NCBI RefSeq assembly: GCF_005116655.2
Contig: NZ_CP050698.1
Span: forward strand, 186,001-250,000
Reading direction: 5' to 3'
DNA from: Desulfosediminicola flagellatus
GTDB taxonomy: Bacteria > Desulfobacterota > Desulfobulbia > Desulfobulbales > Desulfocapsaceae
Length of the DNA stretch: 64,000 nucleotides
Below, piece by piece: positions 7,846 to 39,800 of this stretch. The first letter of the stretch is position 1. Each line of letters opens with the position of its first letter. The notes under the pieces are model-generated. The model had not been told where the DNA came from. It was given only the letters and a program-made list of their open reading frames with translations, and ran no database searches. Made by a program: the position numbers and the translations under genes.

Positions 7846-7949
7846 TACGCAAAACACATAAAGAACCTGTTGCTTTTTGCTTCGGTTTGATTATAGTATC
7901 CGCCGTGCTTGTACTATCATAAAAAGTCGGCACCCATTTCTAACCCCAA

Positions 7950-8026
7950 GCGCTCTTAGCTCAGCTGGATAGAGCAACGGCCTTCTAAGCCGTAGGTCGC
8001 AGGTTCGAATCCTGCAGGGCGTACCA
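7950..8026 (+). tRNA. tRNA-Arg (anticodon TCT)
   Basis: A full cloverleaf can be drawn. The acceptor stem pairs GCGCTCT with AGGGCGT; the D arm is GCTC..GAGC; the anticodon stem ACGGC/GCCGT encloses loop CTTCTAA with anticodon TCT; the T arm is GCAGG-TTCGAAT-CCTGC. The CCA end is encoded. It marks the boundary between core genes and the IS-rich segment. Confidence 0.95.
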
Positions 8027-12368: not shown

Positions 12369-12440
12369 AATTAAACCACATCTTCACAGGATGACATACC
12401 AGGGTAAACATATAGCGATCCCCCACCGCTCGTCATTTTT
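12369..12440. repeat. Solo end of an IS66-type element
   Basis: The segment beginning near GTAAGTGCCAATTAAACC and TTCACAGGATGACAT resembles the left end of the IS66 element at 46879 (GTAAACGCCAATTAAA ... TTCACATGATTACAT). No transposase follows, so this is a leftover end. Its right part (ATGACATACC onward) also appears at 18505, in the flank of the second copy of the 5.4-kb repeat. Confidence 0.45.
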
Positions 12441-12559
12441 TATTGCTGAGATTTAGGGGTAATTAGATAGTTTGTTAACCTGAAATTCCTATAAAGATAA
12501 AGCCTTGACAGATTCTTAGTAATCCGCCCAATTCCCGAGCATAGATTTAAAATTTGACT

Positions 12560-12792
12560 TCAGGAATGGAATTACCTGAATGACAGTTGGATTACAAAGA
12601 CGAAAGTGAGATTGCCAAAGCGACATATACGCCGAGGAAACCGTCAGCTATTTCCTCCTGGAAAAAGGTAGGTATGCCTTAGGTGACGGCAGCAAGATAG
12701 AAGCGGGTTCTTCCAGCAGCTCTACGTCATTTGCACGGATTCTTTTAGAAGAAAAAACAATATTATGGCTCCAGTTGTTCTCAGCTGGGTAG
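12560..12792 (+). pseudogene. Remnant of a lectin-like repeat gene (copy A)
   Basis: Two adjacent frames together reproduce part of the repeat module of the 914-residue protein downstream: LDYKDESEIAK, then after a frameshift AEETVSYFLLEKGRYALGDG and SKIEAGSSSSSTSF. Compare EIVNYIVMEEGSYILDDGSQ and IEAGLFNASASSSSTS in the intact gene. The remnant ends at a stop (12790-12792). It shows that a further copy of this gene family once lay upstream. Confidence 0.7.
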
Positions 12793-13214
12793 TAGCATAG
12801 GAAGACGATCCCGTTGCTGTGGCCGGTTGGTTGAATAGTATACGTGTCGAACCTTTTGGCATGCATCTTGCTTTGGTTACGTGAGTATTTGTTAATACGT
12901 CGACTGAGAATTCAGGAAGGAAAGGAGATTCTTCAACCAACAGTTTCACTTTCCCAACATACAAACACGTGCATAGAGATAACCAGCATAACAAAAGGGT
13001 ATTCGTCTTCTCCCTCTCCGAAACTTTTCCCATTGTTGCATGGTATTAAGTTTGGGCAGAACGAGTAGGCGGAGTTCAATTGTGATCAATTCGTAAATAA
13101 TTCCAAAACGAGTAGGAGCAATCCTCCAAAAAACAACAACAAGGTACAGTGATTAACCGTTGGTTTTCGTTGTTTTTCACGAAGCCAACAATTTTGAGTA
13201 AGGATTTTTCTCTT
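12793..13214. other. Long 5' region upstream of the riboswitch
   Basis: About 420 bases with no coding frame I can support, probably containing the promoter of the riboswitch-controlled transcript. The same sequence lies at 18901-19322. Small frames on both strands show no protein-like features. Confidence 0.4.
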
Positions 13215-13320
13215 GGGAAATTTCCCGATAATGGCAAAGCGATTCCCGAAAGGGCGTGACGCAAAACCACCGGCCTACGTTTCTCGACAGAGAAATACGG
13301 TAGCGGGGTCACCGAAAGAG
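13215..13320 (+). promoter_or_regulatory. c-di-GMP-I (GEMM-I) riboswitch, copy 1
   Basis: The conserved GEMM-I core is present in order: GGCAAAG at 13233, a short stem closed by a GAAA tetraloop, GACGCAAAACCACCGGCCTA from 13258, a long P3-like hairpin (ACGTTTCTC GACA GAGAAATACG), and GGTAGCGGGGTCACCG at 13299-13314. The base equivalent to G20 of the Vc2 aptamer is G, which predicts c-di-GMP rather than cGAMP recognition. The ribosome-binding site AGAGG (13317-13321) follows three bases after the core and ATG 13328 six bases after that, so ligand folding most likely controls translation of the adjoining repeat protein. Confidence 0.88.
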
Positions 13321-13327
13321 GTAACCC

Positions 13328-16072
13328 ATGGCAGTATTCAAGACGACCCAACCCGTTATTATTTCCATTTTGCTGTTCTTTTCATCAAGCATTGCGGCAC
13401 ATGCTGCTAGCGCAACTTTCCGCTGGACACCAAACAATGAACTCGTTTCCGGTTATAAAATTCATTACGGCACAAGCAGTCGAAATTACACTTCAGTATT
13501 TAACGTCAATCCTCCGGCAGTAGTCAATGGTATGATCGAGGCAACGGTGCCAGGACTACTGGAGGGCAAAACATACTATTTTGCGGCAACAGCATACTCG
13601 GCAATCGAAGAGAGCGGCTATTCCACGGAAATCGTGCACACCGTGCCTGGCACGGCTACTCCCCAGCCCCCCGTCGCCGGTAATGTTTCACTGCAGGGGA
13701 AAGAGGATACACCTCTATCCGGGCAGCTGAACGCCAACGACCCGGATGGTGACGCTCTGGTATTCGCGGTTGTTGCGCAACCGGGCCATGGAACGGTAAC
13801 GGTAAAAGGTGATACCGGTTCATTTACCTATATCCCTGCGCTCAATTACTTTGGTTCCGACACATTTTCCTATAAAGTCAGCAATAGCGTCGGTGCATCA
13901 AATCTTGCAACCGTAACCATCAATGTGAGCCAGGTGAACGATGCCCCGTTAGCAAGCAGCACAAGCATCTCCCTTAATGAAAACGCTTCGTACTCCGGGC
14001 AGCTCACGGCAAAAGATGTTGAAGGCAGCAGCCTCACATACGTTTTGGTCGCTCAGGCTGGAAACGGTACAGTTAATCTTAGCACCAGCGGCTTTTTTAA
14101 CTACATACCACAACAGAATTACTCCGGTTCCGACTCATTTACCTTCAAGGTCAGTGACGGCAGCAGTACTTCAAATACAGCCCAGGTGAACATAGCCGTA
14201 CAGCATGTTAATAAGGCCCCTATCACCGAGAGCAGCAGCTTTACCGTTGACCAGGGTGTTCCATACAGCGGGCAACTTGTTGCAACTGATGAGGATGGAG
14301 ATAAAGTAAGTTTTGCCACAGTTACAGCTCCTGAAAAAGGTACTCTTCTCCTTGCTGGCAATGGTTCCTTTACATATACCCCGTACAACAATACTTCAGG
14401 GCCAGACCATTTTACATTTCTGGCAACAGACGGAAATATTGCATCCAACCAGGGAACTGTAAATATCCTCATCAATGAGGCGGCCAATAATGATCTTGCC
14501 TTCGAATTAGGTGAACTACTGGTTACATCAGATTGGCAACATGTCGATTTCGATGCTAAATATATGTCGCCATCGGTGATCGCCAAATCAACAACTACGA
14601 ACGATCCTGAGTCAGGTGTAGTGTCTATCCGCAACCTAACCAGTACAGGATTCGACATCCGGATCCGCGAGTGGGACTACTTAGATGGTCTCCATCCAGC
14701 GGAGATGGTCTCCTATATCGTAATGGAACGAGGTCACCATCAGCTGGCTGATAATGTTTATGCTGTCGCCGAATGTACCGCTTTATCAGGTCTTAACACC
14801 TTCAAGACGATAAAATTTGCCAATTCTTTATCAAGCCAACCGGTAGTTTTGTCATCGATTGTGAGCGAAAACGATACCAACACAGCAACCCTCAGGATGA
14901 AAGGAATAACTCCCCAGGGCTTTTCTGTCACCATGCAGGAGCAGGAGAAAAACGATGGGAAGCATGCTACAGAAACAGTGTGTTACATTGCTATGGAAAA
15001 GTGGTCCGGCGAGGTAGATGGTCTGATGATTGAGGCAGGAACAACCGAAAAAATCCTCACCGATAAGGCCTCGACAATTTCTTTCGAACAGCAATTTTCC
15101 GCCATGCCCTTCGTTTTGGCTGATATGCAGAGTGCCAATGGTATGGATACTGCGATTGTCAGCATGAGTGATATTTCCGTCACCGACACCAGGATGACAA
15201 TTGTTGAAGAACAATCAGCAAATAATGAGGTGTATCATATTGCTGAAATTGGAGGATACTTTGCTATCGCTCCCGTCAAACCGGAAGAAGATTCTCCTGT
15301 TGAAATGGGTGAAACATCAGTGGGGAGTGCTCCTGTGTGGGTAAGTTTCACAAAACACTACAAACAGCCTGTCATTATTGCCAATACTGTCACAAAAAAT
15401 GACACATCCCCGAATGTTGTCCGTATCAGCAATATTACTGAAGACGGTTTCAATATTCAGTTACAGGAATATGATTATCAGGATAACATCCACGGCGTGG
15501 AGATAGTGAATTACATTGTTATGGAAGAGGGAAGTTATATCTTAGACGATGGGTCTCAGATTGAAGCCGGGCTGTTTAACGCAAGCGCTTCATCATCCTC
15601 AACCTCTCTGATTAGTGCATTTTCCGTCAAACCAGTCATTCTAACAAGCATCAATAGTAAAAATGGTAGTGATGCTGTTATTGGGCGTGTTCAGAACATC
15701 ACTTCAAGTGGTTTTGATTACAAACTACAGGAACAGGAAGTGAACAGCCAAGATCATGGTATGGAAACTGTCGCCTACCTGGCGTGGACTCCTGGTTCAG
15801 GCGTAACGAACGGGATCCGCTTTCAGGCGGGAACTACAAGTGACAGCGTTACCCATGCGAACTATAGCATCAACTTTGATCAACAGTTCGATGATCTGCC
15901 ATTCCATTTCGCAGCAATGCAGACAACTGATGGATATGACACTTCAGCCCTGAAAATTGCCCAGGCAGGAATCGATAGCATGGCGATTATGGTTGAAGAG
16001 GAAACTTCAAAAGATTCAGAAATATATCACACTGCAGAAGTTGGTGGCTTTCTTATCATTAAGCCGGAGTAA
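13328..16072 (+). CDS. Secreted Fn3/cadherin-like/lectin-like repeat protein, copy 1
   Basis: The 914-residue protein starts with a signal peptide (IISILLFFSSSIAAHAAS, cleavage near 27). A fibronectin type III domain (about 28-108) and three cadherin-like 'tandem-95' repeats (about 112-385; NYFGSDTFSYKVS, NYSGSDSFTFKVSDG, NTSGPDHFTFLATDG) follow. Then come six modules of roughly 60-90 residues arranged as two triads (about 388-650 and 655-914), each with a pattern F-x3-F-x3-PVV...NIT-x2-GF...E-x-V-x-YIVMExG. The modules recall H-type lectin domains, but that is inference. It is probably an extracellular matrix or adhesion protein. A c-di-GMP riboswitch abuts its ribosome-binding site, and the beta-helix gene follows 420 bases downstream. 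An identical gene lies at 19436. No PEP-CTERM or other anchor is seen at the C-terminus. Confidence 0.85.
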   Translation: MAVFKTTQPVIISILLFFSSSIAAHAASATFRWTPNNELVSGYKIHYGTSSRNYTSVFNVNPPAVVNGMIEATVPGLLEGKTYYFAATAYSAIEESGYSTEIVHTVPGTATPQPPVAGNVSLQGKEDTPLSGQLNANDPDGDALVFAVVAQPGHGTVTVKGDTGSFTYIPALNYFGSDTFSYKVSNSVGASNLATVTINVSQVNDAPLASSTSISLNENASYSGQLTAKDVEGSSLTYVLVAQAGNGTVNLSTSGFFNYIPQQNYSGSDSFTFKVSDGSSTSNTAQVNIAVQHVNKAPITESSSFTVDQGVPYSGQLVATDEDGDKVSFATVTAPEKGTLLLAGNGSFTYTPYNNTSGPDHFTFLATDGNIASNQGTVNILINEAANNDLAFELGELLVTSDWQHVDFDAKYMSPSVIAKSTTTNDPESGVVSIRNLTSTGFDIRIREWDYLDGLHPAEMVSYIVMERGHHQLADNVYAVAECTALSGLNTFKTIKFANSLSSQPVVLSSIVSENDTNTATLRMKGITPQGFSVTMQEQEKNDGKHATETVCYIAMEKWSGEVDGLMIEAGTTEKILTDKASTISFEQQFSAMPFVLADMQSANGMDTAIVSMSDISVTDTRMTIVEEQSANNEVYHIAEIGGYFAIAPVKPEEDSPVEMGETSVGSAPVWVSFTKHYKQPVIIANTVTKNDTSPNVVRISNITEDGFNIQLQEYDYQDNIHGVEIVNYIVMEEGSYILDDGSQIEAGLFNASASSSSTSLISAFSVKPVILTSINSKNGSDAVIGRVQNITSSGFDYKLQEQEVNSQDHGMETVAYLAWTPGSGVTNGIRFQAGTTSDSVTHANYSINFDQQFDDLPFHFAAMQTTDGYDTSALKIAQAGIDSMAIMVEEETSKDSEIYHTAEVGGFLIIKPE

Positions 16073-16127
16073 GCTCTATCTAAATGAAATGGTCGAGTAG
16101 ATAAAGGTAATTTTTGGCTCTTCATGA

Positions 16128-16168
16128 GTGAATAGTATGACTCTTATACTTATAGTCATACTATTCAC
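16128..16168 (+). terminator. Long hairpin after the repeat protein (copy 1)
   Basis: A perfect 15-bp inverted repeat (GTGAATAGTATGACT / AGTCATACTATTCAC) with an 11-base AT-rich loop lies 55 bases after the stop. It lacks a T run, so its role as a terminator or mRNA stabiliser is inferred. The same hairpin is at 22236-22276. Confidence 0.5.
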
Positions 16169-16209
16169 GAACTGGAAAGTTGAGTTAAGAAATACAATAC
16201 GACAACAAT

Positions 16210-16302
16210 ATGAAACCTCAAACAAGTAAAGGTATTTCGGTAGTTGGTGAAGCCTGCATTACTGGTTCGCATTTATGTGAACGTTTATTGAAGGAATTGT
16301 AG
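16210..16302 (+). pseudogene. Scrap of an NAD-dependent epimerase/dehydratase (copy 1)
   Basis: A 30-residue frame reads ISVVGEACITGSHLCERLLK, which matches the start of sugar-nucleotide epimerases (usually VTGGAGFIGSHLCERLL), but the glycine-rich NAD loop is spoiled. The rest of the gene is missing. A further protein-like stretch without function I can name follows to 16459. The second copy is at 22318-22410. Confidence 0.5.
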
Positions 16303-16492
16303 CGAAATACTGAATTTCACAGGTGATAGATAGTATCCAGTTGTTGCAGCCGGCTACAATAGTGCGGTTTTAGAAAGTGATTATTCAACTTTTGCAGAAT
16401 TGTTAGTCACTGAGCTTTGCGATGAGATACACCCGATTACAAGAAGTATTGCTTCGAATTAGATCCTTTGGGATCTGCAAAGGAGAACAAAA

Positions 16493-17989
16493 ATGTCTTT
16501 AAAAAGTATTAAACAGATGAAAAAAACAAAATATATAATTGGTGCATATCTAACTATTTTTTGCCTTGCACCATATTCCATAGCCCATGCTAAAATAAAC
16601 GCCCCGATAAACTTCCAGCTAGGGGACGACGTCTCCATCCCACTCACCTGTAAACGCACTTATTATGTTTCCAACAGTGGCAATGATACTGCTAATGGTT
16701 TAACCACTGCAGCTGCGTGGGCAACTGTAGGCAAAGTAAACAAGACTTCTTTTTCGCCTGGGGACTGTGTATTGTTCAATCGTGGTGGCACTTGGAGACA
16801 GCAGTTATTAATACCGAGCAGCGGATCAGCTAGTGGTGGAAGTATCACGTTTGGGGCATATGGAACAGGAAATAAACCAGTTTTTGATGGTACTGGGGTT
16901 AATCTCGCTAAGTATCATGGTTTAATTAGAGGGACAAATAAAAACTACATCATTATAGACAATATCAGAGTACAAAATTCTGGGATTGGTAAGGCAGCAG
17001 AAAATTCAGGTATAGGTTTCTATGGTGGCACAAATATAATAGTTCAACATTCCGAAGTAAACAAAACTGAGTCATCCGGAATCAGAATGAATACCAGCTC
17101 TAATGTTGGTGTATTTTACAATGATGTTTCAATGACCAATTGTAGTAGCGCCAGCGAACAAATCTCTCTGTCTGCTGTAAACGGGTTTGAGGTCGCGTAT
17201 AATGATTCATATACTAACTGCAATCCGTCTTATCATCCTCCAGGCGGTGCTGGCATAGATTCTAAGCAAGGTTCCAAAAATGGTGCAATTCACCATAATA
17301 ACGTAAGGGATATAGCTGGTGGTTCCAACGGTATATACGTCGATGCTTACAACCAAGACACATATAATATTCAAGTGTATAACAACCATGTTCAAGATAT
17401 AGGTGCGGGTGGAATATCTATAGGTGCAGAAGCCGGAGGTGCTTTACATAATGTTACGGTGCATCATAACATTGTTGAGAAGGCTGGAAGAGGAGGAATA
17501 GTATTTCATAATGCGGGGACGACTGGTAAGAATGTTTATGATATATTCGTCTATAATAACACGTTGTATCTTAATGGGACAAGCGGCACCAAGTACTTTG
17601 GGGGAGTAAGAATATTTGATACCCTACTGACAGGCGTAACATTCAAAAACAATATTCTCTCTCATGGTTATAATTTTCAAATCGGTGTAGATTATATTAG
17701 TCCTTCAGTAGTAACTTTGGACAACAATGTAATTTACGGAGTAAATGTTGATTCCGGTGGATTTTCTCATTTGAACGGTAAAAATACGATTTTTAGTGAT
17801 CCGTTATACACTGCTCCCGGAAGTAACGACTTTCATTTACGGGCTGGTTCACCGGCAAAAGATGCCTGTGATAATTCCGTGTGGCAGGGGATTCCAAATA
17901 TAAAGGACTATGACGGTGTGCCTATAACAGACGGGAGCGGAAAAATTGTTGCCCCTGGCGGAATAGTCAACTGTGGCGCTTATGAATAG
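16493..17989 (+). CDS. Secreted right-handed parallel beta-helix protein, copy 1
   Basis: The 498-residue product has a signal peptide (after a short basic start MSLKSIKQMKKTK, hydrophobic core IIGAYLTIFCLAPYSIAHA). It then shows the pectate-lyase-like layout: TYYVSNSGNDTANGLT, RGGTWRQQLLIPSSGS and successive NN-rich coils such as IHHNNVRDIAG, VYNNHVQDIGAGGIS, VHHNIVEKAGRGGIVFHN and VYNNTLYLNG. The tail GSPAKDACDNS ... GGIVNCGAYE is common in such beta-helix proteins. It may bind or cleave an acidic polysaccharide; no catalytic residues can be assigned. GCAAAGGAGA precedes ATG 16493; a second in-frame Met (residue 9) is possible. It follows the riboswitch-controlled gene and probably belongs to the same functional unit. 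An identical copy is at 22601. Confidence 0.8.
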   Translation: MSLKSIKQMKKTKYIIGAYLTIFCLAPYSIAHAKINAPINFQLGDDVSIPLTCKRTYYVSNSGNDTANGLTTAAAWATVGKVNKTSFSPGDCVLFNRGGTWRQQLLIPSSGSASGGSITFGAYGTGNKPVFDGTGVNLAKYHGLIRGTNKNYIIIDNIRVQNSGIGKAAENSGIGFYGGTNIIVQHSEVNKTESSGIRMNTSSNVGVFYNDVSMTNCSSASEQISLSAVNGFEVAYNDSYTNCNPSYHPPGGAGIDSKQGSKNGAIHHNNVRDIAGGSNGIYVDAYNQDTYNIQVYNNHVQDIGAGGISIGAEAGGALHNVTVHHNIVEKAGRGGIVFHNAGTTGKNVYDIFVYNNTLYLNGTSGTKYFGGVRIFDTLLTGVTFKNNILSHGYNFQIGVDYISPSVVTLDNNVIYGVNVDSGGFSHLNGKNTIFSDPLYTAPGSNDFHLRAGSPAKDACDNSVWQGIPNIKDYDGVPITDGSGKIVAPGGIVNCGAYE

Positions 17990-18103
17990 CAGTGGGAACT
18001 CTGGTTTTTACTGTCCGATTTTTTGTTTCTGAGAAGTGGTCCCATACTTTAAACCACACGTTTTAGCGGTTTTTAGTTGTGAAGCATAGGGGACCTGGGT
18101 TAC

Positions 18104-18147
18104 GCCCCTTCAGCCCCTTTTTCTCGCGAAAAAGGGGCTGAAGGGGC
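18104..18147. terminator. 19-bp perfect hairpin inside the IS3 remnant
   Basis: Perfect arms (GCCCCTTCAGCCCCTTTTT and its complement) surround CTCGCG. It sits between the IS end and the transposase stop, in the same relative place as the palindrome at 25397-25430 in the other IS3 remnant. A barrier to transcription across the element is a reasonable guess. Confidence 0.5.
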
Positions 18148-18155
18148 GCTCTGGT

Positions 18156-18490
18156 TCAAATTGCGATGATCGCCTCCTTTCTGTAAACCTCTTCTGGAGT
18201 CGCTCCTAAAAGGGTTTGATGATGCTGGTTATTATAAAGATTGATATAGGTTGCAATCCCTTTTTCTAGTTCGTTCGGGTTTTCACAGGACTGCAGGTAA
18301 ATATCTTCGTATTTTATACTCCGCAAGAATCTTTCGACGACGACATTAACAAGCCACTTTCCTTTACCATCCCTATGCTGATTCGATCCCCAACTGCCTT
18401 TAAAACAGAACTCCATTTTTCAGAGGTGAAATGACAACCCTGATCGGTATTCCCGAAATCTTCATTGTCCGCTGTAAACAATTGACGTAG
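18156..18490 (-). pseudogene. IS3 OrfB transposase, C-terminal part, frameshifted
   Basis: Two frames give NTDQGCHFTSEKWSSVLK and, after a shift, DGKGKWLVNVVVERFLRSIK, then YEDIYLQSCENPNELEKG and YNNQHHQTLLGATPEEVYRK. This is the DDE integrase core end of IS3 OrfB, including the catalytic Glu of the VVVERF segment. The N-terminal half is missing. Confidence 0.85.
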
Positions 18491-18667
18491 AGCCTGGGAG
18501 CATGATGACATACCAAGGTTATCATATAGCGATCCCCCAGTCATTTTCTATCGCTGAGCTTTAGGAGGAATATGATAGTTAATTAACCTGAAATTCCAAT
18601 AAAGATAAAACCTTGGTAGATGCTTAGTAATCCGCCCAATTCCCAGGCATGGATTTGAAATTCGACT

Positions 18668-18900
18668 TTATGAAGGGAATTACCTGGATGACAGTTGGAT
18701 TACAAAGACGAAAGCGAGATTGCCAAAGCGACATATACGCCGAGGAAACCGTCAGCTATTTCCTCCTGGAAAAAGGTAGGTATGCCTTAGGTGACGGCAG
18801 CAAGATAGAAGCGGGTTCTTCCAGCAGCTCTACGTCATTTGCACGGATTCTTTTAGAAGAAAAAACAATATTATGGCTCCAGTTGTTCTCAGCTGGGTAG
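18668..18900 (+). pseudogene. Remnant of a lectin-like repeat gene (copy B)
   Basis: This is the counterpart of the remnant at 12560-12792, with the same frameshift and the same AEETVSYFLLEKGRYALGDG segment. Up to 18715 it differs at many bases from the other copy; from 18716 on it is identical. It confirms that the flanking remnant was duplicated earlier than the last homogenisation of the main unit. Confidence 0.7.
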
Positions 18901-19322
18901 TAGCATAGGAAGACGATCCCGTTGCTGTGGCCGGTTGGTTGAATAGTATACGTGTCGAACCTTTTGGCATGCATCTTGCTTTGGTTACGTGAGTATTTGT
19001 TAATACGTCGACTGAGAATTCAGGAAGGAAAGGAGATTCTTCAACCAACAGTTTCACTTTCCCAACATACAAACACGTGCATAGAGATAACCAGCATAAC
19101 AAAAGGGTATTCGTCTTCTCCCTCTCCGAAACTTTTCCCATTGTTGCATGGTATTAAGTTTGGGCAGAACGAGTAGGCGGAGTTCAATTGTGATCAATTC
19201 GTAAATAATTCCAAAACGAGTAGGAGCAATCCTCCAAAAAACAACAACAAGGTACAGTGATTAACCGTTGGTTTTCGTTGTTTTTCACGAAGCCAACAAT
19301 TTTGAGTAAGGATTTTTCTCTT

Positions 19323-19428
19323 GGGAAATTTCCCGATAATGGCAAAGCGATTCCCGAAAGGGCGTGACGCAAAACCACCGGCCTACGTTTCTCGACAGAG
19401 AAATACGGTAGCGGGGTCACCGAAAGAG
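19323..19428 (+). promoter_or_regulatory. c-di-GMP-I (GEMM-I) riboswitch, copy 2
   Basis: Base-for-base copy of the riboswitch at 13215-13320, with GGCAAAG, GAAA tetraloop, GACGCAAA, CCGGCCTA and GGTAGCGGGGTCACCG. The AGAGG ribosome-binding site and ATG 19436 follow at the same spacing. Confidence 0.88.
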
Positions 19429-19435
19429 GTAACCC

Positions 19436-22180
19436 ATGGCAGTATTCAAGACGACCCAACCCGTTATTATTTCCATTTTGCTGTTCTTTTCATCAAGCAT
19501 TGCGGCACATGCTGCTAGCGCAACTTTCCGCTGGACACCAAACAATGAACTCGTTTCCGGTTATAAAATTCATTACGGCACAAGCAGTCGAAATTACACT
19601 TCAGTATTTAACGTCAATCCTCCGGCAGTAGTCAATGGTATGATCGAGGCAACGGTGCCAGGACTACTGGAGGGCAAAACATACTATTTTGCGGCAACAG
19701 CATACTCGGCAATCGAAGAGAGCGGCTATTCCACGGAAATCGTGCACACCGTGCCTGGCACGGCTACTCCCCAGCCCCCCGTCGCCGGTAATGTTTCACT
19801 GCAGGGGAAAGAGGATACACCTCTATCCGGGCAGCTGAACGCCAACGACCCGGATGGTGACGCTCTGGTATTCGCGGTTGTTGCGCAACCGGGCCATGGA
19901 ACGGTAACGGTAAAAGGTGATACCGGTTCATTTACCTATATCCCTGCGCTCAATTACTTTGGTTCCGACACATTTTCCTATAAAGTCAGCAATAGCGTCG
20001 GTGCATCAAATCTTGCAACCGTAACCATCAATGTGAGCCAGGTGAACGATGCCCCGTTAGCAAGCAGCACAAGCATCTCCCTTAATGAAAACGCTTCGTA
20101 CTCCGGGCAGCTCACGGCAAAAGATGTTGAAGGCAGCAGCCTCACATACGTTTTGGTCGCTCAGGCTGGAAACGGTACAGTTAATCTTAGCACCAGCGGC
20201 TTTTTTAACTACATACCACAACAGAATTACTCCGGTTCCGACTCATTTACCTTCAAGGTCAGTGACGGCAGCAGTACTTCAAATACAGCCCAGGTGAACA
20301 TAGCCGTACAGCATGTTAATAAGGCCCCTATCACCGAGAGCAGCAGCTTTACCGTTGACCAGGGTGTTCCATACAGCGGGCAACTTGTTGCAACTGATGA
20401 GGATGGAGATAAAGTAAGTTTTGCCACAGTTACAGCTCCTGAAAAAGGTACTCTTCTCCTTGCTGGCAATGGTTCCTTTACATATACCCCGTACAACAAT
20501 ACTTCAGGGCCAGACCATTTTACATTTCTGGCAACAGACGGAAATATTGCATCCAACCAGGGAACTGTAAATATCCTCATCAATGAGGCGGCCAATAATG
20601 ATCTTGCCTTCGAATTAGGTGAACTACTGGTTACATCAGATTGGCAACATGTCGATTTCGATGCTAAATATATGTCGCCATCGGTGATCGCCAAATCAAC
20701 AACTACGAACGATCCTGAGTCAGGTGTAGTGTCTATCCGCAACCTAACCAGTACAGGATTCGACATCCGGATCCGCGAGTGGGACTACTTAGATGGTCTC
20801 CATCCAGCGGAGATGGTCTCCTATATCGTAATGGAACGAGGTCACCATCAGCTGGCTGATAATGTTTATGCTGTCGCCGAATGTACCGCTTTATCAGGTC
20901 TTAACACCTTCAAGACGATAAAATTTGCCAATTCTTTATCAAGCCAACCGGTAGTTTTGTCATCGATTGTGAGCGAAAACGATACCAACACAGCAACCCT
21001 CAGGATGAAAGGAATAACTCCCCAGGGCTTTTCTGTCACCATGCAGGAGCAGGAGAAAAACGATGGGAAGCATGCTACAGAAACAGTGTGTTACATTGCT
21101 ATGGAAAAGTGGTCCGGCGAGGTAGATGGTCTGATGATTGAGGCAGGAACAACCGAAAAAATCCTCACCGATAAGGCCTCGACAATTTCTTTCGAACAGC
21201 AATTTTCCGCCATGCCCTTCGTTTTGGCTGATATGCAGAGTGCCAATGGTATGGATACTGCGATTGTCAGCATGAGTGATATTTCCGTCACCGACACCAG
21301 GATGACAATTGTTGAAGAACAATCAGCAAATAATGAGGTGTATCATATTGCTGAAATTGGAGGATACTTTGCTATCGCTCCCGTCAAACCGGAAGAAGAT
21401 TCTCCTGTTGAAATGGGTGAAACATCAGTGGGGAGTGCTCCTGTGTGGGTAAGTTTCACAAAACACTACAAACAGCCTGTCATTATTGCCAATACTGTCA
21501 CAAAAAATGACACATCCCCGAATGTTGTCCGTATCAGCAATATTACTGAAGACGGTTTCAATATTCAGTTACAGGAATATGATTATCAGGATAACATCCA
21601 CGGCGTGGAGATAGTGAATTACATTGTTATGGAAGAGGGAAGTTATATCTTAGACGATGGGTCTCAGATTGAAGCCGGGCTGTTTAACGCAAGCGCTTCA
21701 TCATCCTCAACCTCTCTGATTAGTGCATTTTCCGTCAAACCAGTCATTCTAACAAGCATCAATAGTAAAAATGGTAGTGATGCTGTTATTGGGCGTGTTC
21801 AGAACATCACTTCAAGTGGTTTTGATTACAAACTACAGGAACAGGAAGTGAACAGCCAAGATCATGGTATGGAAACTGTCGCCTACCTGGCGTGGACTCC
21901 TGGTTCAGGCGTAACGAACGGGATCCGCTTTCAGGCGGGAACTACAAGTGACAGCGTTACCCATGCGAACTATAGCATCAACTTTGATCAACAGTTCGAT
22001 GATCTGCCATTCCATTTCGCAGCAATGCAGACAACTGATGGATATGACACTTCAGCCCTGAAAATTGCCCAGGCAGGAATCGATAGCATGGCGATTATGG
22101 TTGAAGAGGAAACTTCAAAAGATTCAGAAATATATCACACTGCAGAAGTTGGTGGCTTTCTTATCATTAAGCCGGAGTAA
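19436..22180 (+). CDS. Secreted Fn3/cadherin-like/lectin-like repeat protein, copy 2
   Basis: The 914-residue product is identical to that encoded at 13328-16072: signal peptide, Fn3 domain, three cadherin-like repeats and six lectin-like modules in two triads. Having two identical copies, each with its own riboswitch, would double the dose of a c-di-GMP-controlled matrix protein. The lack of any difference means the copies are young or kept alike by gene conversion, or that the assembly repeated the unit. Confidence 0.83.
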   Translation: MAVFKTTQPVIISILLFFSSSIAAHAASATFRWTPNNELVSGYKIHYGTSSRNYTSVFNVNPPAVVNGMIEATVPGLLEGKTYYFAATAYSAIEESGYSTEIVHTVPGTATPQPPVAGNVSLQGKEDTPLSGQLNANDPDGDALVFAVVAQPGHGTVTVKGDTGSFTYIPALNYFGSDTFSYKVSNSVGASNLATVTINVSQVNDAPLASSTSISLNENASYSGQLTAKDVEGSSLTYVLVAQAGNGTVNLSTSGFFNYIPQQNYSGSDSFTFKVSDGSSTSNTAQVNIAVQHVNKAPITESSSFTVDQGVPYSGQLVATDEDGDKVSFATVTAPEKGTLLLAGNGSFTYTPYNNTSGPDHFTFLATDGNIASNQGTVNILINEAANNDLAFELGELLVTSDWQHVDFDAKYMSPSVIAKSTTTNDPESGVVSIRNLTSTGFDIRIREWDYLDGLHPAEMVSYIVMERGHHQLADNVYAVAECTALSGLNTFKTIKFANSLSSQPVVLSSIVSENDTNTATLRMKGITPQGFSVTMQEQEKNDGKHATETVCYIAMEKWSGEVDGLMIEAGTTEKILTDKASTISFEQQFSAMPFVLADMQSANGMDTAIVSMSDISVTDTRMTIVEEQSANNEVYHIAEIGGYFAIAPVKPEEDSPVEMGETSVGSAPVWVSFTKHYKQPVIIANTVTKNDTSPNVVRISNITEDGFNIQLQEYDYQDNIHGVEIVNYIVMEEGSYILDDGSQIEAGLFNASASSSSTSLISAFSVKPVILTSINSKNGSDAVIGRVQNITSSGFDYKLQEQEVNSQDHGMETVAYLAWTPGSGVTNGIRFQAGTTSDSVTHANYSINFDQQFDDLPFHFAAMQTTDGYDTSALKIAQAGIDSMAIMVEEETSKDSEIYHTAEVGGFLIIKPE

Positions 22181-22235
22181 GCTCTATCTAAATGAAATGG
22201 TCGAGTAGATAAAGGTAATTTTTGGCTCTTCATGA

Positions 22236-22276
22236 GTGAATAGTATGACTCTTATACTTATAGTCATACTATTCAC
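22236..22276 (+). terminator. Long hairpin after the repeat protein (copy 2)
   Basis: Identical to the 15-bp inverted repeat at 16128-16168; no T run follows. Confidence 0.5.
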
Positions 22277-22317
22277 GAACTGGAAAGTTGAGTTAAGAAA
22301 TACAATACGACAACAAT

Positions 22318-22410
22318 ATGAAACCTCAAACAAGTAAAGGTATTTCGGTAGTTGGTGAAGCCTGCATTACTGGTTCGCATTTATGTGAACGTTTATTGAA
22401 GGAATTGTAG
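22318..22410 (+). pseudogene. Scrap of an NAD-dependent epimerase/dehydratase (copy 2)
   Basis: Identical to the 30-residue fragment at 16210-16302 (ITGSHLCERLLK). Confidence 0.5.
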
Positions 22411-22600
22411 CGAAATACTGAATTTCACAGGTGATAGATAGTATCCAGTTGTTGCAGCCGGCTACAATAGTGCGGTTTTAGAAAGTGATTATTCAACTTT
22501 TGCAGAATTGTTAGTCACTGAGCTTTGCGATGAGATACACCCGATTACAAGAAGTATTGCTTCGAATTAGATCCTTTGGGATCTGCAAAGGAGAACAAAA

Positions 22601-24097
22601 ATGTCTTTAAAAAGTATTAAACAGATGAAAAAAACAAAATATATAATTGGTGCATATCTAACTATTTTTTGCCTTGCACCATATTCCATAGCCCATGCTA
22701 AAATAAACGCCCCGATAAACTTCCAGCTAGGGGACGACGTCTCCATCCCACTCACCTGTAAACGCACTTATTATGTTTCCAACAGTGGCAATGATACTGC
22801 TAATGGTTTAACCACTGCAGCTGCGTGGGCAACTGTAGGCAAAGTAAACAAGACTTCTTTTTCGCCTGGGGACTGTGTATTGTTCAATCGTGGTGGCACT
22901 TGGAGACAGCAGTTATTAATACCGAGCAGCGGATCAGCTAGTGGTGGAAGTATCACGTTTGGGGCATATGGAACAGGAAATAAACCAGTTTTTGATGGTA
23001 CTGGGGTTAATCTCGCTAAGTATCATGGTTTAATTAGAGGGACAAATAAAAACTACATCATTATAGACAATATCAGAGTACAAAATTCTGGGATTGGTAA
23101 GGCAGCAGAAAATTCAGGTATAGGTTTCTATGGTGGCACAAATATAATAGTTCAACATTCCGAAGTAAACAAAACTGAGTCATCCGGAATCAGAATGAAT
23201 ACCAGCTCTAATGTTGGTGTATTTTACAATGATGTTTCAATGACCAATTGTAGTAGCGCCAGCGAACAAATCTCTCTGTCTGCTGTAAACGGGTTTGAGG
23301 TCGCGTATAATGATTCATATACTAACTGCAATCCGTCTTATCATCCTCCAGGCGGTGCTGGCATAGATTCTAAGCAAGGTTCCAAAAATGGTGCAATTCA
23401 CCATAATAACGTAAGGGATATAGCTGGTGGTTCCAACGGTATATACGTCGATGCTTACAACCAAGACACATATAATATTCAAGTGTATAACAACCATGTT
23501 CAAGATATAGGTGCGGGTGGAATATCTATAGGTGCAGAAGCCGGAGGTGCTTTACATAATGTTACGGTGCATCATAACATTGTTGAGAAGGCTGGAAGAG
23601 GAGGAATAGTATTTCATAATGCGGGGACGACTGGTAAGAATGTTTATGATATATTCGTCTATAATAACACGTTGTATCTTAATGGGACAAGCGGCACCAA
23701 GTACTTTGGGGGAGTAAGAATATTTGATACCCTACTGACAGGCGTAACATTCAAAAACAATATTCTCTCTCATGGTTATAATTTTCAAATCGGTGTAGAT
23801 TATATTAGTCCTTCAGTAGTAACTTTGGACAACAATGTAATTTACGGAGTAAATGTTGATTCCGGTGGATTTTCTCATTTGAACGGTAAAAATACGATTT
23901 TTAGTGATCCGTTATACACTGCTCCCGGAAGTAACGACTTTCATTTACGGGCTGGTTCACCGGCAAAAGATGCCTGTGATAATTCCGTGTGGCAGGGGAT
24001 TCCAAATATAAAGGACTATGACGGTGTGCCTATAACAGACGGGAGCGGAAAAATTGTTGCCCCTGGCGGAATAGTCAACTGTGGCGCTTATGAATAG
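22601..24097 (+). CDS. Secreted right-handed parallel beta-helix protein, copy 2
   Basis: The 498-residue product is identical to the one encoded at 16493-17989, with the same signal peptide, NN-rich beta-helix coils and GAYE ending. It is the last gene of the second copy of the repeat; 40 bases past its stop lies the IS-end scar. Confidence 0.8.
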   Translation: MSLKSIKQMKKTKYIIGAYLTIFCLAPYSIAHAKINAPINFQLGDDVSIPLTCKRTYYVSNSGNDTANGLTTAAAWATVGKVNKTSFSPGDCVLFNRGGTWRQQLLIPSSGSASGGSITFGAYGTGNKPVFDGTGVNLAKYHGLIRGTNKNYIIIDNIRVQNSGIGKAAENSGIGFYGGTNIIVQHSEVNKTESSGIRMNTSSNVGVFYNDVSMTNCSSASEQISLSAVNGFEVAYNDSYTNCNPSYHPPGGAGIDSKQGSKNGAIHHNNVRDIAGGSNGIYVDAYNQDTYNIQVYNNHVQDIGAGGISIGAEAGGALHNVTVHHNIVEKAGRGGIVFHNAGTTGKNVYDIFVYNNTLYLNGTSGTKYFGGVRIFDTLLTGVTFKNNILSHGYNFQIGVDYISPSVVTLDNNVIYGVNVDSGGFSHLNGKNTIFSDPLYTAPGSNDFHLRAGSPAKDACDNSVWQGIPNIKDYDGVPITDGSGKIVAPGGIVNCGAYE

Positions 24098-24238
24098 CAG
24101 TGGGAACTCTGGTTTTTACTGTCCGATTTTTTGTTTCTGAGAAGTGGTCCCGTGCAAGCTGATTCAGTCTTCCATCTCTTCCATAGTGCTATATAGGGAA
24201 AAGATCATAAAAAAAAAGCATACTTGGCATGGAAATCT

Positions 24239-25372: not shown

Positions 25373-25940
25373 AAAGAAGTGGTCCCGTCTTTAGGGCCAC
25401 CGCCTTCTCCCAGCTGGGAGAAGGCGGTGGAGGTTTTTACGCGGCTTTTTTTAGCTCTTTGTAGTACACCTCATCGGGTGTCTGATCGCCAAAACGTTCG
25501 TGCGGTCTTCTGGTATTATACCGTTTTCTATAAGCTCGGATCCCTTCCCCGAGTTCCCGAGGGTTTTCATACGATTTCAGATAAATAACCTCGTATTTTA
25601 TCGACATCCCAAAGCGCTAGATGATCACGTTATCGATCCATCGCCCTTTGCCATCCATACTGATGGCTATTCCATTCTCTTTGAGCAGGGTTGTCCATCT
25701 CGCTGAGGTAAATTGACAAGCTTGATCTGTATTAAAAAATCTGGTTTTGTGTTTCTCAGTAATGCTCGTTTCAGGCAGCGTATACAGAGTTTTGTGTCGA
25801 GTGTGGTTGAAATTTCCTAATCTACTATTCTTCTAGAATACCAATAAATTATGGCGAACAGATACATAAACCCACGTTTCATTGGGATGTAGGTGATATC
25901 CGCTGCTCATAGCAGGCTAGGAGCAGTTCACTTATTCCCT
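25373..25940 (-). mobile_element. IS3-family element remnant
   Basis: It begins with the IS end AAGTGGTCCCG, then a 34-bp perfect palindrome (25397-25430, CCACCGCCTTCTCCCAG and its complement), then OrfB on the - strand. The far end is not recognisable. It is a relative of the remnant at 18031. Confidence 0.75.
25437..25915 (-). pseudogene. IS3 OrfB transposase with internal stops
   Basis: Reading the - strand gives ADITYIPMKRGFMYLFAII, YWYSRRIVD, a stop, STTLDTKLCIRCLKRAL, NTDQACQFTSARWTTLL, KENGIAISMDGKGRWIDN and VII, then an amber stop where Glu of the catalytic VE-R-F segment should be, then SIKYEVIYLKSYENPREL and RPHERFGDQTPDEVYYKEL. The order matches the OrfB integrase core. It is inactive through at least two stops. 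Confidence 0.85.
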
Positions 25941-33855: not shown

Positions 33856-36800
33856 TTATTCAACCGTGATGGTCTGGTTTGCTGTATTGGTGTCATCATC
33901 ATTGTCGGTAACCGTGAGGATAACGGTGTAGGTGCCATCTTCGGTATAGGTATGGTTTGTTTCGCTCCCGCTTGTACCATCGCCATAGTCCCAGGCATAC
34001 GAGACGATTAAACCGTCTTCATCGGTTGAACCGGAAGCATCAAAGTTCACCTCCAGCGGGTACACACCGGAAACTGGATCGGCCGTGAAAATGGCCACTG
34101 GCGCAATGTTTTCAGGCTCTGCTACCGTAACGGTCTGGGTGGCCATGCTGCTGGCGCCATCTTCATCGGTAACAGTGAGGATAACGGTGTAGCTGCCATC
34201 TTCGGTATAGGTATGGTTTGTTTCGCTCCCGCTTGTACCATCGCCATAGTCCCAGGCATACGAGACGATTGAACCGTCCTCATCAGTTGAACCGGAAGCA
34301 TCAAAGTTCACCTCCAGCGGGTACACACCGGAAACTGGATCGGCCGTGAAAATGGCCACTGGCGCAATGTTTTCAGGCTCTGCCACCGTAACGGTCTGGG
34401 TGGCCATGCTGCTGGCGCCATCTTCATCGGTAACCGTAAGGATAACGGTGTAGGTGCCATCTTCGGTATAGGTATGGTTTGTTTCGCTCCCGCTTGTACC
34501 ATCGCCATAGTCCCAGGCATACGAGACGATTGAACCGTCCTCATCGGTTGAACCGGAAGCATCAAAGTTCACCTCCAGCGGGTACACACCGGAAACTGGA
34601 TCGGCCGTGAAAATGGCCACTGGCGCAATGTTTTCAGGCTCTGCCACCGTAACGGTCTGGGTGGCCATGCTGCTGGCGCCATCTTCATCGGTAACCGTAA
34701 GGATAACGGTGTAGGTGCCATCTTCGGTATAGGTATGGTTTGTTTCGCTCCCGCTTGTACCATCGCCATAGTCCCAGGCATACGAGACGATTGAACCGTC
34801 CTCATCGGTTGAACCGGAAGCATCAAAGTTCACCTCCAGCGGGTACACACCGGAAACTGGATCGGCCGTGAAAATGGCCACTGGCGCAATGTTTTCAGGC
34901 TCTGCCACCGTAACGGTCTGGGTGGCCATGCTGCTGGCGCCATCTTCATCGGTAACCGTAAGGATAACGGTGTAGGTGCCATCTTCGGTATAGGTATGGT
35001 TTGTTTCGCTCCCGCTTGTACCATCGCCATAGTCCCAGGCATACGAGACGATTGAACCGTCCTCATCGGTTGAACCGGAAGCATCAAAGTTCACCTCCAG
35101 CGGGTACACACCGGAAACTGGATCGGCCGTGAAAATGGCCACTGGCGCAATGTTTTCAGGCTCTGCCACCGTAACGGTCTGGGTGGCCATGCTGCTGACG
35201 CCATCTTCATCGGTAACCGTAAGGATAACGGTGTAGGTGCCATCTTCGGTATAGGTATGGTTTGTTTCGCTCCCGCTTGTACCATCGCCATAGTCCCAGG
35301 CATACGAGACGATTGAACCGTCCTCATCGGTTGAACCGGAAGCATCAAAGTTCACCTCCAGCGGGTACACACCGGAAACTGGATCGGCCGTGAAAATGGC
35401 CACTGGCGCAATGTTTTCAGGCTCTGTCACCGTAATGGTCTGGGTGGCCATTCTACTGGCGCCATCTTCATCGGTAACAGTGAGGATAACAGTGTAGCTG
35501 CCATCTTCGGTATAGGTATGGTTTGTTTCGATCCCGCTTGTACCATCGCCATAGTCCCAGGTATACAATACGATTAGACCGTCCTCATCGGTTGAACCGG
35601 AAGCATCAAAGTTCACCTCCAGCGGGTACACACCGGAAACTGGATCGGCCGTGAAAATGGCAATTGGTGCAATATTTTCAGGCTCTACCACCGTAATGGT
35701 CTGGGTGGCCGTGCTGCTGGCACCATCTTCATCGGTAACAGTGAGGATAACGGTGTAGCTGCCATCTTCGGTATAGGTATGGGTTGTTTCGATCCCGCTT
35801 GTACCATCGCCATAGTCCCATGTATACGAGACGATTGAACCGTCCTCATCATCGCCATAGTCCCATACATACGAGACGATTGAACCGTCCTCATCGGTTG
35901 AGCCAGAAGCATCAAAGGATACAGTCAGCGAGGCCTCGCCCGCTATCGGATCGGCCGTGAAGCTTGCAGTTGGGGCTGTGTTAGAGTCTATGGAAAGCTG
36001 GTAGGGGAGCTGAGCTACAGGACATCGATTTCCACCGATGAATACGAGATCTGCAGCAACCCCACTGTTTGTTTGAACATCAAAATAAACAGTGGCCCCA
36101 GCAGGAAACTCGAAATCAATCCCGTCGAAATAGGGCCGCGACATAGTCATATCAAATGTAATCACTTGAGAATTGGAGGTATCCAGAATATCACTTGCCT
36201 CAAGGTTGACAGGAGTTACTCTGCTAAACTCCATATTTGAAACTATATTGCCGGTAAACCTTTGCCACCCACTGAGTCCTGCTACAGCCCTCAAGTGCCA
36301 AACATTTCCTTCCTGCCACAGAAAAATCCCATCCTCTGTTGCTGGATCATAATTAGGTTCTCCATAAGGATTACACGTACTCGAAGTTCCAACAGTGATT
36401 ATCTGGCTGGTCGTATCGGAGAAACCATCGTCGTCGGTAACAGTTAGGCTAACGTTGTAGATGCCAGGTGCGTTGTACGTATGGCTTGTTGCTGCGCCAC
36501 TACCAGTACCATCGTCATAATCCCATTCATAGGATACAATCGAACCATCCCCATCAGGGTCATACGACATAGAAGCATTGAAGGTCACTTCCAGCGGGGC
36601 ATTACCTAAAGTTGGATCGGCAGTGAAAATAGCCACTGGGGCTGTGTTAGAGTCTAAGGAAAGCTGATAGGGGAGTTGATCTACCGGACATTGATTTTCA
36701 CCGATGAATACGAGATCGGCAGCAACCCCGCTGCTTGCTTGAAAATCAAAAGAGACAGTGGCACCAACTGGAAACTCGAAATCAATCCCGTCGAAATAGG

Positions 36801-39800
36801 GTCGCGACATAGTCATATCAAATGTAATCACTTGAGAATTGGAGGTATCCAGAATATCACTTGCCTCAAGGTTGACAGGAGTTACCCTGCTAAACTCCAT
36901 ATTTGAAACTATGTTGCCGGTAAACCTTTGCCACCCACTGAGTCCTGCTACAGCTCTCAAGTGCCAAACATTTCCTTCCTGCCACAGAAAAATCCCATCC
37001 TCTGTTGCTGGATCATAATTAGGTTCTCCATAAGGATTACACGTACTCGAAGTTCCAACAGTGATAATCTGGCTGGTTGTATCGGAGAAACCATCGTCGT
37101 CGGTAACAGTTAGGCTAACGTCGTAGATGCCAGGTTCGTTGTAAGTATGGCTTGTTGTTACGCCGCTGCCTGTACCATCGTCATAGTCCCACTCATAGGA
37201 TACGATTGAACCACCATCTGGGTCGTATGACGTAGAAGCATCAAAGGTCACGTATAGTGAGACCTCCCCCGAAGTTGGATCGGCCGTGAAGGCAGCCACT
37301 GGTGCTGTGTTTTGTGGGTCTTCCACAGTGATAATCTGGCTGGTCGTATTGGTGACACCATAGTCGTCGGTAACAGTGAGGCTAACGGTGTAAGTGCCAG
37401 GTTCGTTGTATGTATGGCTTGTTGTTACGCCGCTGCCTGTACCATCGTCAAAGTCCCACTCATAGGATACGATTGAACCATCCGCATCCGGGTCATACGA
37501 CGTAGAAGCATCAAAGGTCACGTATAGTGAGACCTCCCCCGAAGTTGGATCGGCAGTGAAAATAGCCACTGGCGCTGTGTTTTGTGGGTCTTCCACAGTG
37601 ATAATCTGGCTGGTCGTATCGGTGACACCATAGTCGTCGGTAACAGTGAGGCTAACGGTGTAAGTGCCAGGTTCGTTGTATGTATGGCTTGTTGTTACGC
37701 CGCTGCCTGTACCATCGTCATAGTCCCACTCATAGGATACGATTGAACCATCCGCATCCGGGTCATACGACATAGAAGCATTGAAGGTCACTTCCAGCGG
37801 AGCATTACCTATAGTTGGATCGGCAGTGAAAATAGCCACTGGCGCTGTGTTTTGTCGGTCTTCCACAGTGATAGTCTGGCTGATCGTATCGATGACACCA
37901 TAGTCGTCGGTAACAGCGAGGCTAACGGTGTATATGCCAGTTGCGTTGTATGTATGGCTCGTTGTTACGCCGCTGCCTGTACCATCGTCATAGTCCCACT
38001 CATAGGATACGATTGAACCATCCGCATCCGGGTCATATGACATAGAAGCATCAAAGGTCACGTATAGCGGGACCTCACCCGAAGTTGGATCGGCCGTGAA
38101 GGCAGCCACTGGCGCTGTGTTAGAGCCTAAGGAAAGTTGATAGGGAAGCTGAGCTACAGGACATTGATCTCCACCAATAAATACGAGATCGGCAGCATTC
38201 CCATAATTCGCTTGAACATCAAAAGAAACAGTGGCACCAGCTGGAAACTCGAAATCAAGGCCGTCGAAATAAGGTCGCGACATATTCATGTCAAATGTAA
38301 TCAACTGAGAATTTGAGGTGTCCAGAATATCATTTGCTTCAAAGCTGACAGGGGTTACCGTGTTAAACGGCATATCTGAAACAATGCTTCCAGTATACCT
38401 TTGCCACCCACTGAGCCCCGCTATAGCCCTCAAGTGCCAAACATTTCCTTCTTGCCACAGAAAAATCCCATCCTCTGTTGCTGGATCATAATTCGGTATT
38501 CCATACGGATTACAAGTAGTCGACGTTCCCACAGTGACGGTCACGGTTGCGCTATCAGTGAAACCATTACCGTCATCAATTGTATAGGTAAAGGTGTCCG
38601 TACCTGAAAAACCTCCCGGTGGGGTGTAGTCGATAAAGTCATCGTTTGGATCAGACGGCGAGGCGTTATCATTGATAGTGGCAATGCCGCTTTGGTCAGT
38701 TAGGCTCTGTACTGCAATAATGGTCAGCGTGTCACCATTTGGATCGTAGTCATTACTCAGGACACTCACAGTCGTCGCAGTATCCGTATCCGTTGTGGCG
38801 CTATCACCAACTGCCACTGGCGGTTGAGGGCCTCCTGAAGATTCTACAACCTGAATGATTTTATCAGCTGCTAGATTTTCTAATACCTGAACAATCCCAC
38901 TAGGCCACTGTACTTCCAGGCTCTGGATGGTTGAATTCTGCCCAAGGCCGAAGTGGATGCGCGTATGATTTTGTGAATCCCTGTGCATACCACCACCTTG
39001 CTCACGCAACTGAGTCTTCCCCCCTGCGGTGACTAGCACGCGAGCGCCAATACCGTCTCTATTGGAAGTCGTGCCGACTAAGTCGATTTCAATCCAGTGA
39101 TTGTTGTTTCCGTTATTTTTAAATAACTGAATAGGCCCTAAATGATCAAAAGGCGGCGGATATCTTCCATTGGTGACGAACAGGTCAAGAAAACCATCGC
39201 GGTTATAGTCCGCAGTGACTACATGATCCCCCAGTCCCAGCGTGGTCCCTGCCGCTCCTCCCGCATCAGGAACTTCAATAAAATCGCCTGCTCCGGTATT
39301 TTCATAGAGAGAATTGGGTGTATTCTGAACAAACATCGAATTAACTACATAAATATCCACATCCATATCATTGTCAAAATCACCAGTAACAACACTTCTC
39401 CCAGGTAGATTCTTAACGATTCCACTTTGTGATGTTCTCTTTTCCAGCTGAACTCCATTATGAATATAGAGACTGTCTACAGCCGGTTGAAACATATTAA
39501 TATTTAAAAGAGTCAAATCAGATATTGGACTGCCATCGGTTTCGGCGATGAATCTGCACTCAAAGTCTTCGTCAAAAGGGACTGAAGAAACAATTTTCCA
39601 TTCATTCAAAACCTCATCAAAGCCGATAAATACGCCATAATCTACTCCCGGTTCATAGGGAAACATGCCAGACGCCTTGGGGTTATCAGGGTCTAGCTCT
39701 AAATAAACCGGAACTCTAGGCCAATAGCCCCATATTCTCGGGTCATCTGGAGCGATGTAGCCCTCAAATTCTTCAGCGGGGTACCCTGATGAACCAATGA

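Follow-up and report, generated by a model that had tools for sequence, protein, structure and literature searches.

A duplicated c-di-GMP-I riboswitch before a gene for a predicted secreted fibronectin type III/H-lectin-type protein in Desulfosediminicola flagellatus

A 64,000-nucleotide (nt) stretch of the Desulfosediminicola flagellatus genome (contig NZ_CP050698.1, positions 186,001 to 250,000; hereafter the window, whose coordinates are used unless a contig or locus is named) contains, in two exact copies, a unit of one class I cyclic di-GMP (c-di-GMP-I, or GEMM-I) riboswitch, one gene for a 914-amino-acid (aa) protein and one gene for a 498-aa protein. In each copy the riboswitch stands directly before the gene for the 914-aa protein, a likely secreted fn3/cadherin-like/H-lectin-type protein, and it is probable, judging from the sequence, that c-di-GMP frees the ribosome-binding site (RBS) and thereby turns translation on. 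The duplication had been overlooked in an earlier annotation made from the sequence alone (the first-pass annotation). The features concerned are the following.

12608-18043, + strand: exact tandem duplication, copy 1 (5436 base pairs (bp), zero mismatches, offset 6108)
18716-24151, + strand: exact tandem duplication, copy 2, identical to 12608-18043 over 5436 bp
13223-13316, + strand: c-di-GMP-I (GEMM-I) aptamer, copy 1 (RF01051, 62.5 bits, E 7.5e-10)
19331-19424, + strand: c-di-GMP-I aptamer, copy 2 (RF01051, 62.5 bits; G20 is 19341)
13215-13226, + strand: predicted 5′ hairpin GGGA-AAUU-UCCC, the 3′ strand of which overlaps a predicted strand of aptamer helix P1
13306-13327, + strand: predicted RBS-hiding hairpin, GGGU/ACCC plus ACC/GGU, which uses the 3′ strand of aptamer helix P3
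13317-13321, + strand: RBS AGAGG, from the sequence, with a 6-nt spacer to the ATG at 13328
13328-16072, + strand: gene for the 914-aa protein, copy 1 (fn3, three Big_9/cadherin-like stretches and an H_lectin region, all by Pfam; signal peptide by eye)
19436-22180, + strand: gene for the 914-aa protein, copy 2, identical to copy 1

The aptamer search was performed with cmscan against Rfam 15, in which the gathering score of RF01051 is 35 bits; the second RF01051 match exists because 12608-18043 recurs exactly at 18716-24151. The first-pass annotation had recognized the GEMM-I core blocks, all of which are present in the sequence, and the Rfam covariance model agrees with it in matching 13223-13316. 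The P2 GAAA tetraloop is present (CCC-GAAA-GGG at 13245-13254), and 11 nt lie between the end of the copy 1 aptamer and the ATG at 13328 of the 914-aa gene. The RBS had likewise been placed correctly just after the core: AGAGG directly follows the last model position, 13316, and its GAGG starts four bases past the G of ACCG, the end of the core as first drawn. The numbering of the Vc2 riboswitch was put on the Rfam alignment by equating G13234-C13262 with G21-C46, and by this inferred numbering position 20 is G13233, the first G of GGCAAA, and position 47 is A13263, so that the G earlier assigned to the selectivity position is retained. The ligand contacts of Vc2 include G19, G21, C46 and A47 (PMC7288161), and an A20G change converted a GEMM-Ib switch selective for cyclic GMP-AMP (cGAMP) to c-di-GMP (PMC6456294). 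With G at position 20, c-di-GMP is therefore the likely ligand. The window genome contains 37 GGDEF matches, 36 of them above the Pfam cut-off, and in 30 loci 25 GGDEF signatures were read, all of them GHxxGD, while 5 loci yielded none. A D-to-S exchange at that place of the signature is the mark of Hypr (cGAMP) cyclases, and none of these 25 signatures is of the Hypr type; the counts together with the GHxxGD signatures make c-di-GMP synthesis likely. The whole genome gives 8 RF01051 matches, and in a rescan of seven of these loci (the eighth, copy 2 of the unit, lay outside it) RF03167, the GGC type, was the best model in 5 and RF01051 in 2. The genome's only other best-fit RF01051 switch (L008, C1:4212073-4212164) precedes a small protein that by eye is STN/secretin-N-like.

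The junction between switch and gene was searched for in 257 genomes of the order (taken as Desulfobulbales), whose members are mostly sulfate-reducing bacteria, with a 31-nt pattern running from P3 to the ATG and allowing at most 3 mismatches. It occurs in 4 of the 257 genomes, namely the window genome (twice), Desulfopila sp. IMCC35006, the Desulfocapsaceae metagenome-assembled genome MO_192.B14 and genome G170; read backwards as a control, the pattern occurs in 0 of 257. NCBI places Desulfopila in the Desulfocapsaceae, Desulfobulbales, and the genome search tool classes both IMCC35006 and MO_192.B14 in the family of the window genome. Every one of the junctions is covered by RF01051, and in all four genomes 11 nt separate the aptamer from the start codon of a related protein, the identity to the 914-aa protein being 66% in IMCC35006, 50% in the best segment in MO_192.B14 and 35-52% in segments in G170. 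The four leaders keep GGGANAUUUCCCGA before the aptamer core (4 of 4, save the loop base N) and CCGAAAGAG after it, and their sequence further upstream differs. IMCC35006 also carries a second, decayed leader upstream (L088, ~7882-8000), ~79% identical in DNA to the intact copy; it precedes an fn3 fragment of 119 aa whose start codon is TTG. In an Rfam scan of 20 loci with relatives of protein P0001, RF01051 was found only in L088 (IMCC35006), L089 (MO_192.B14) and L030 (the last two on the same contig) and RF03167 in L069, and six longer stretches (L136-L141) contained no GEMM. The c-di-GMP-I-GGC switch was rejected as a normal alternative at this place: in the G034 case (L135, 8499-8572) it lies ~2 kb upstream of the lectin-type gene, has by eye its own terminator-like sequence, and is separated from the lectin-type gene by a transposase-like frame.

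Translational control of the 914-residue protein had already been proposed in the first-pass annotation, and it is supported by the lack of any terminator-like site on the + strand between aptamer and ATG and by the predicted RBS hairpin, in which the P3 3′ strand CGGGGUC can alternatively pair with the spacer and RBS, GGUAACCC. The two predicted hairpins that flank the aptamer suggest a translational ON switch. Without ligand, the P3-closing strand CGGGGUC and the adjoining ligand-contact ACC would fold onto the RBS and spacer, and the small 5′ hairpin GGGANAUUUCCC would sequester the second strand of P1; once ligand is bound, P1 (UUU..CG / CGAAA) and P3 would form, both hairpins would open and AGAGG would be exposed 6 nt before the ATG. 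High c-di-GMP, that is, the sessile state, would thus lead to more secretion of a protein whose likely binding target is polysaccharide, either the cell's own or that of a neighbour, and two exact copies would double the protein dose under one signal. When the 15 nt that follow the aptamer strand are shuffled 1000 times, 0.5% of the shuffles attain the energy of the window RBS hairpin (13305-13330; -10.7 kcal/mol), and the values for the corresponding hairpins are 0.3% of 1000 in G170 and 3.5% in MO_192.B14. The free fold of the leader has -36.8 kcal/mol versus -33.3 kcal/mol for the aptamer-forced fold, a difference that tight ligand binding could offset.

Several observations weigh against the ON switch and its conservation. 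The RBS hairpin is weak in IMCC35006 (reached by 27.6% of shuffles), because the site there reads GAGAC, the spacer AACCC being kept despite this change. Over the eight positions of the hairpin, pairing is possible in 4, 4, 4, 2, 1, 3, 3 and 4 of the four leaders, one position thus failing in two leaders and one in three, the window among them, and no two-sided compensatory change is present among the four. The whole leader barely beats its shuffles (z -1.18, with 24 of 200 shuffles folding as well or better; for a 46-nt piece, z -1.81 and 11 of 200), and none of the three same-genus genomes searched contained the junction. With four leaders and two weak positions, the pair counts by themselves do not prove an ON switch. 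The converse arrangement, a translational OFF switch in which ligand binding closes the RBS, is nevertheless rather unlikely: Vc2 has been called a translational OFF switch (PMC9262584), and the forced-aptamer model retains a 3-bp ACC/GGU hairpin on the RBS, but the nucleotides that pair with the RBS are those of P3 and, by inference, of the ligand contact, both roles at once being impossible, and the regulation exerted by Vc1, which precedes the adhesin gene gbpA, is positive (PMC4744006).

A leader sequence model derived from four Fn3 cassettes matched in 47 of the 257 genomes. Among 57 RF01051-type leaders, 52 are followed within 320 nt by the start of a frame of 90 aa or more, and the first 220 residues of these 52 proteins match fn3 in 22 cases and Big_9 in 16. 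Because the 57-leader set had been chosen partly by the Fn3-cassette model, a recount was made on an Rfam-only list: from 55 rows with hits of at least 84 nt, hand-picked among the Rfam matches listed, three of the GGC type (G078:C66, G245:C161, G111:C10) were removed, and three of the remaining 52, which come from genomes other than the window genome, IMCC35006 and MO_192.B14, were unclassifiable (two contig ends and one followed by a second aptamer). Of the resulting 49 classifiable switches among the matches listed, a script assigned 28 to proteins with an Fn3-like head, 7 to an 'EYG' family and 14 to other or no targets; by eye, one of these 14 (G101a) is Fn3-like, and two (G043:C22 and G084a) resemble the EYG family. 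The Fn3-like head sits near the protein start, behind an apparent signal peptide. Among the classified switches of this riboswitch class in the order, no other arrangement is as frequent as a switch before an Fn3-headed protein. At 26 GGC-type loci with 19 downstream proteins of at least 90 aa, fn3 was not among the 25 families listed of 29. The switch plus Fn3-headed cassette has been copied in tandem several times: contig C41 of G043 carries three leaders (the first 91% identical to the second and third over 101 nt), and C45 of G233 carries two cassettes (85% over 881 nt). A second recurrent RF01051 target consists of likely secreted proteins of ~300-355 aa with an EYG..I(Y/F) motif near the start (loci L250, L251, L274, L061, L063, L066 and L127).

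Position 20, read by eye in 59 leaders outside the window, is G in 48, A in 10 (L210, L220, L118, L229, L128, L129, L132, L133 and, twice, L239) and ambiguous in one (L246). Three of the A20 leaders precede Fn3-headed genes, in G170 (L118, C4:299927-300048), G245 (L210, C137) and G244 (L220, C163), and the A20 cassette of G170 shares the junction and the 5′ hairpin with the window cassette. That three Fn3-headed cassettes of the order carry A20 would fit a window switch that senses 3′,3′-cGAMP instead of c-di-GMP, as would the Geobacter genes for Fn3 proteins that stand behind GEMM riboswitches (PMC2996986, PMC13194489) and the preference of many Geobacter GEMM-I riboswitches for cGAMP (PMC6456294). 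Such a ligand is very unlikely here, however, as the base is G20, the very base that turned GEMM-Ib to c-di-GMP (PMC6456294), and the 25 signatures read in the window genome include no Hypr type. Even in G170 the cGAMP reading is weakened by the lack of a Hypr signature: of its 34 GGDEF matches, 30 loci were examined, which yielded 26 readable signatures (two the same), all GHxxGD, and 4 without one. We tentatively consider, as a possibility that falls well short of probable, a portable Desulfobulbales cassette that has been spread by tandem copying and in which the signal has been exchanged in nature, most members having G20 (c-di-GMP) and those of three genomes A20 (cGAMP). If true, the dose of the surface protein and the identity of the signal would change in evolution independently of the protein itself, and natural G20/A20 pairs on like genes would make ligand exchange directly testable.

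The two copies in the window show no difference in 5436 bp, which sets their divergence below 0.00055 per site at 95% and implies a recent duplication or homogenization. Their left flanks (12387-12606 and 18501-18714) are only 85% identical and their right flanks diverge, with different sequence after 18043 and after 24151. The absence of any difference could also reflect an assembly artefact with one real copy, an explanation that we regard as improbable given that the genome is a single 6.75-Mb contig (estimated completeness 97.0%, contamination 6.9%), that each copy has its own left and right flank, and that diverged tandem cassettes exist in IMCC35006 (79%), G233 (85%) and G043 (leaders 91%). 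The surroundings of the copies contain these remnants.

12571-12732, + strand (C1:198571-198732): decayed H-lectin-type gene fragment upstream of copy 1, matching residues 703-756 of the 914-aa protein, with 2 TGA
18694-18840 (C1:204694-204840): like H-lectin-type fragment upstream of copy 2
18156-18419, - strand: insertion-sequence transposase remnant (rve_3) between the copies
25437-25616, - strand: insertion-sequence transposase remnant (rve_3) downstream of copy 2

A perfect 21-bp inverted repeat with a 4-nt loop (18103-18148) lies beside the insertion-sequence remnant between the copies.

The Fn3/cadherin-like/H-lectin-like composition that had been read from the translation is confirmed by Pfam, in which the fn3, Big_9/cadherin-like and H_lectin matches of the 914-aa protein are all above their cut-offs (H_lectin, PF09458: 54.0 bits versus 24), and the protein is likely secreted and a predicted matrix protein. 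An AlphaFold2 model computed from ten sequences consists almost entirely of strands, with a mean predicted local distance difference test score of 77.7 and a predicted template-modelling score of 0.38. The fold comparison was of no help with the lectin part of the reading: the best 50 of 1896 Foldseek matches of the whole-protein model are mostly cadherin- or Ig-type chains and include no H-type lectin, and no lectin is present among five PDB sequence matches. The Pfam match is consequently what points to sugar binding, and lectin activity is suggested by it.

The second gene of the unit and the repeat that precedes it are as follows.

16493-17989, + strand: gene for a 498-aa right-handed beta-helix protein, copy 1 (PF13229, 36.0 bits, cut-off 25.9)
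22601-24097, + strand: gene for the 498-aa beta-helix protein, copy 2, identical to copy 1
16128-16168, no strand: perfect 15-bp inverted repeat between the lectin-type and beta-helix genes, without a T-run

The beta-helix gene starts 420 bp past the lectin-type gene, behind the inverted repeat, and by eye has its own RBS. The compact module of sensor, matrix protein and beta-helix protein envisaged in the first-pass annotation is not supported as it was put. In IMCC35006 the gene next to the cassette is a PrsT-type TPR gene on the opposite strand, and in G170 no beta-helix relative is present in the 15 kb examined; the contig of MO_192.B14 ends within the lectin-type gene, so that a neighbour could be looked for in these two other cassette genomes. 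Its absence from both led to the rejection of a conserved partnership between beta-helix gene and switch. A beta-helix relative does adjoin a switch-less paralogous lectin-type locus in the window genome, and in G002 a weak relative (27% identity) is located ~2.5 kb away from a lectin-type gene; the two families thus do meet, though not in a conserved association with the switch. These neighbourhoods also bear on whether the switch acts mainly on transcription, by way of Rho or an undetected terminator, with the lectin-type and beta-helix genes sharing one transcript. The two genes have the same orientation and were duplicated as a pair, as such a transcript would have it, but it is an unlikely main mode of control in view of the missing + strand terminator-like site between aptamer and ATG, the inverted repeat and 420 bp that separate the genes, and the lack of a beta-helix neighbour in the two other genomes where this was checkable. 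A third, diverged lectin/fn3/beta-helix locus of the genome (C1:252442-255995; L029, 3440-6995) lies just past the window, near an exopolysaccharide export gene; a switch at that locus was rejected, no GEMM being found up to E 1 in a 20-kb stretch.

The type of control proposed for the 914-aa protein gene is already known from the literature, with a GEMM before an Fn3-type gene in Geobacter and a c-di-GMP switch before an adhesin gene in Vibrio. In Geobacter bemidjiensis a GEMM-regulated fibronectin-type-III gene has expanded to three copies (Gbem_1796/1798/1799; PMC2996986), and in G. sulfurreducens the GEMM before the FNIII protein gene KN400_1971 was mutated in evolved strains (PMC13194489). 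The window unit resembles these in having a GEMM before a gene for an Fn3 protein possibly on the cell surface, in multiple copies as in G. bemidjiensis, with the GEMM immediately preceding a gene whose product has an fn3 domain and, by eye, a signal peptide; it differs in its G20, its Big_9 and H-lectin-type parts, its exact copies and its order. Vc1 of Vibrio cholerae is likewise a class I c-di-GMP switch and positively controls an adhesin, GbpA, that binds N-acetylglucosamine surfaces, but its motif is located within the first 111 nt of a >200-nt leader (PMC4744006), whereas the window aptamer stops 11 nt short of the ATG and is itself predicted to supply the strand that hides the RBS. The GEMM-Ib switches of Geobacter share the GEMM-I fold class and precede polysaccharide, pilus and cytochrome genes; they are cGAMP-selective with A20 (shown for Gmet_0970) and in the pgcA case have a terminator (PMC6456294), in contrast to the G20 and the absence of a terminator-like site here. 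RF03167 (c-di-GMP-I-GGC), with five copies in the window genome, belongs to the same Rfam clan and likely to related signalling, but its position 21 is C, not G, and is paired with G. In the titles, abstract openings and parts of PMC2996986, PMC13194489 and PMC11224092 that represent the open-licence literature here, no such case in this order was described, and no open-licence paper on a c-di-GMP riboswitch in Desulfobulb- taxa was found. In that literature no counterpart was met for the exact twin unit, the H-lectin-type target, the G20/A20 spread on like genes or the predicted hiding of the RBS by a P3 strand together with a 5′ hairpin. If the proposed control is true, c-di-GMP would be tied directly to a matrix protein without a protein regulator in this group, and the link between riboswitch and Fn3-like head (28 of 49) would give a countable c-di-GMP output in uncultured genomes.

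Elsewhere the window carries exopolysaccharide genes, for example one for a polyprenyl glycosylphosphotransferase above its NCBIfam cut-off (58484-59917) and one for a protein with a tyrosine-autokinase domain above its cut-off (61386-63530). It also encodes, at 33856-40887, a 2343-aa protein with FG-GAP and UnbV_ASPIC parts followed by a long PKD array (14 PKD_4 stretches), the DNA of which has a 261-bp repeat offset.

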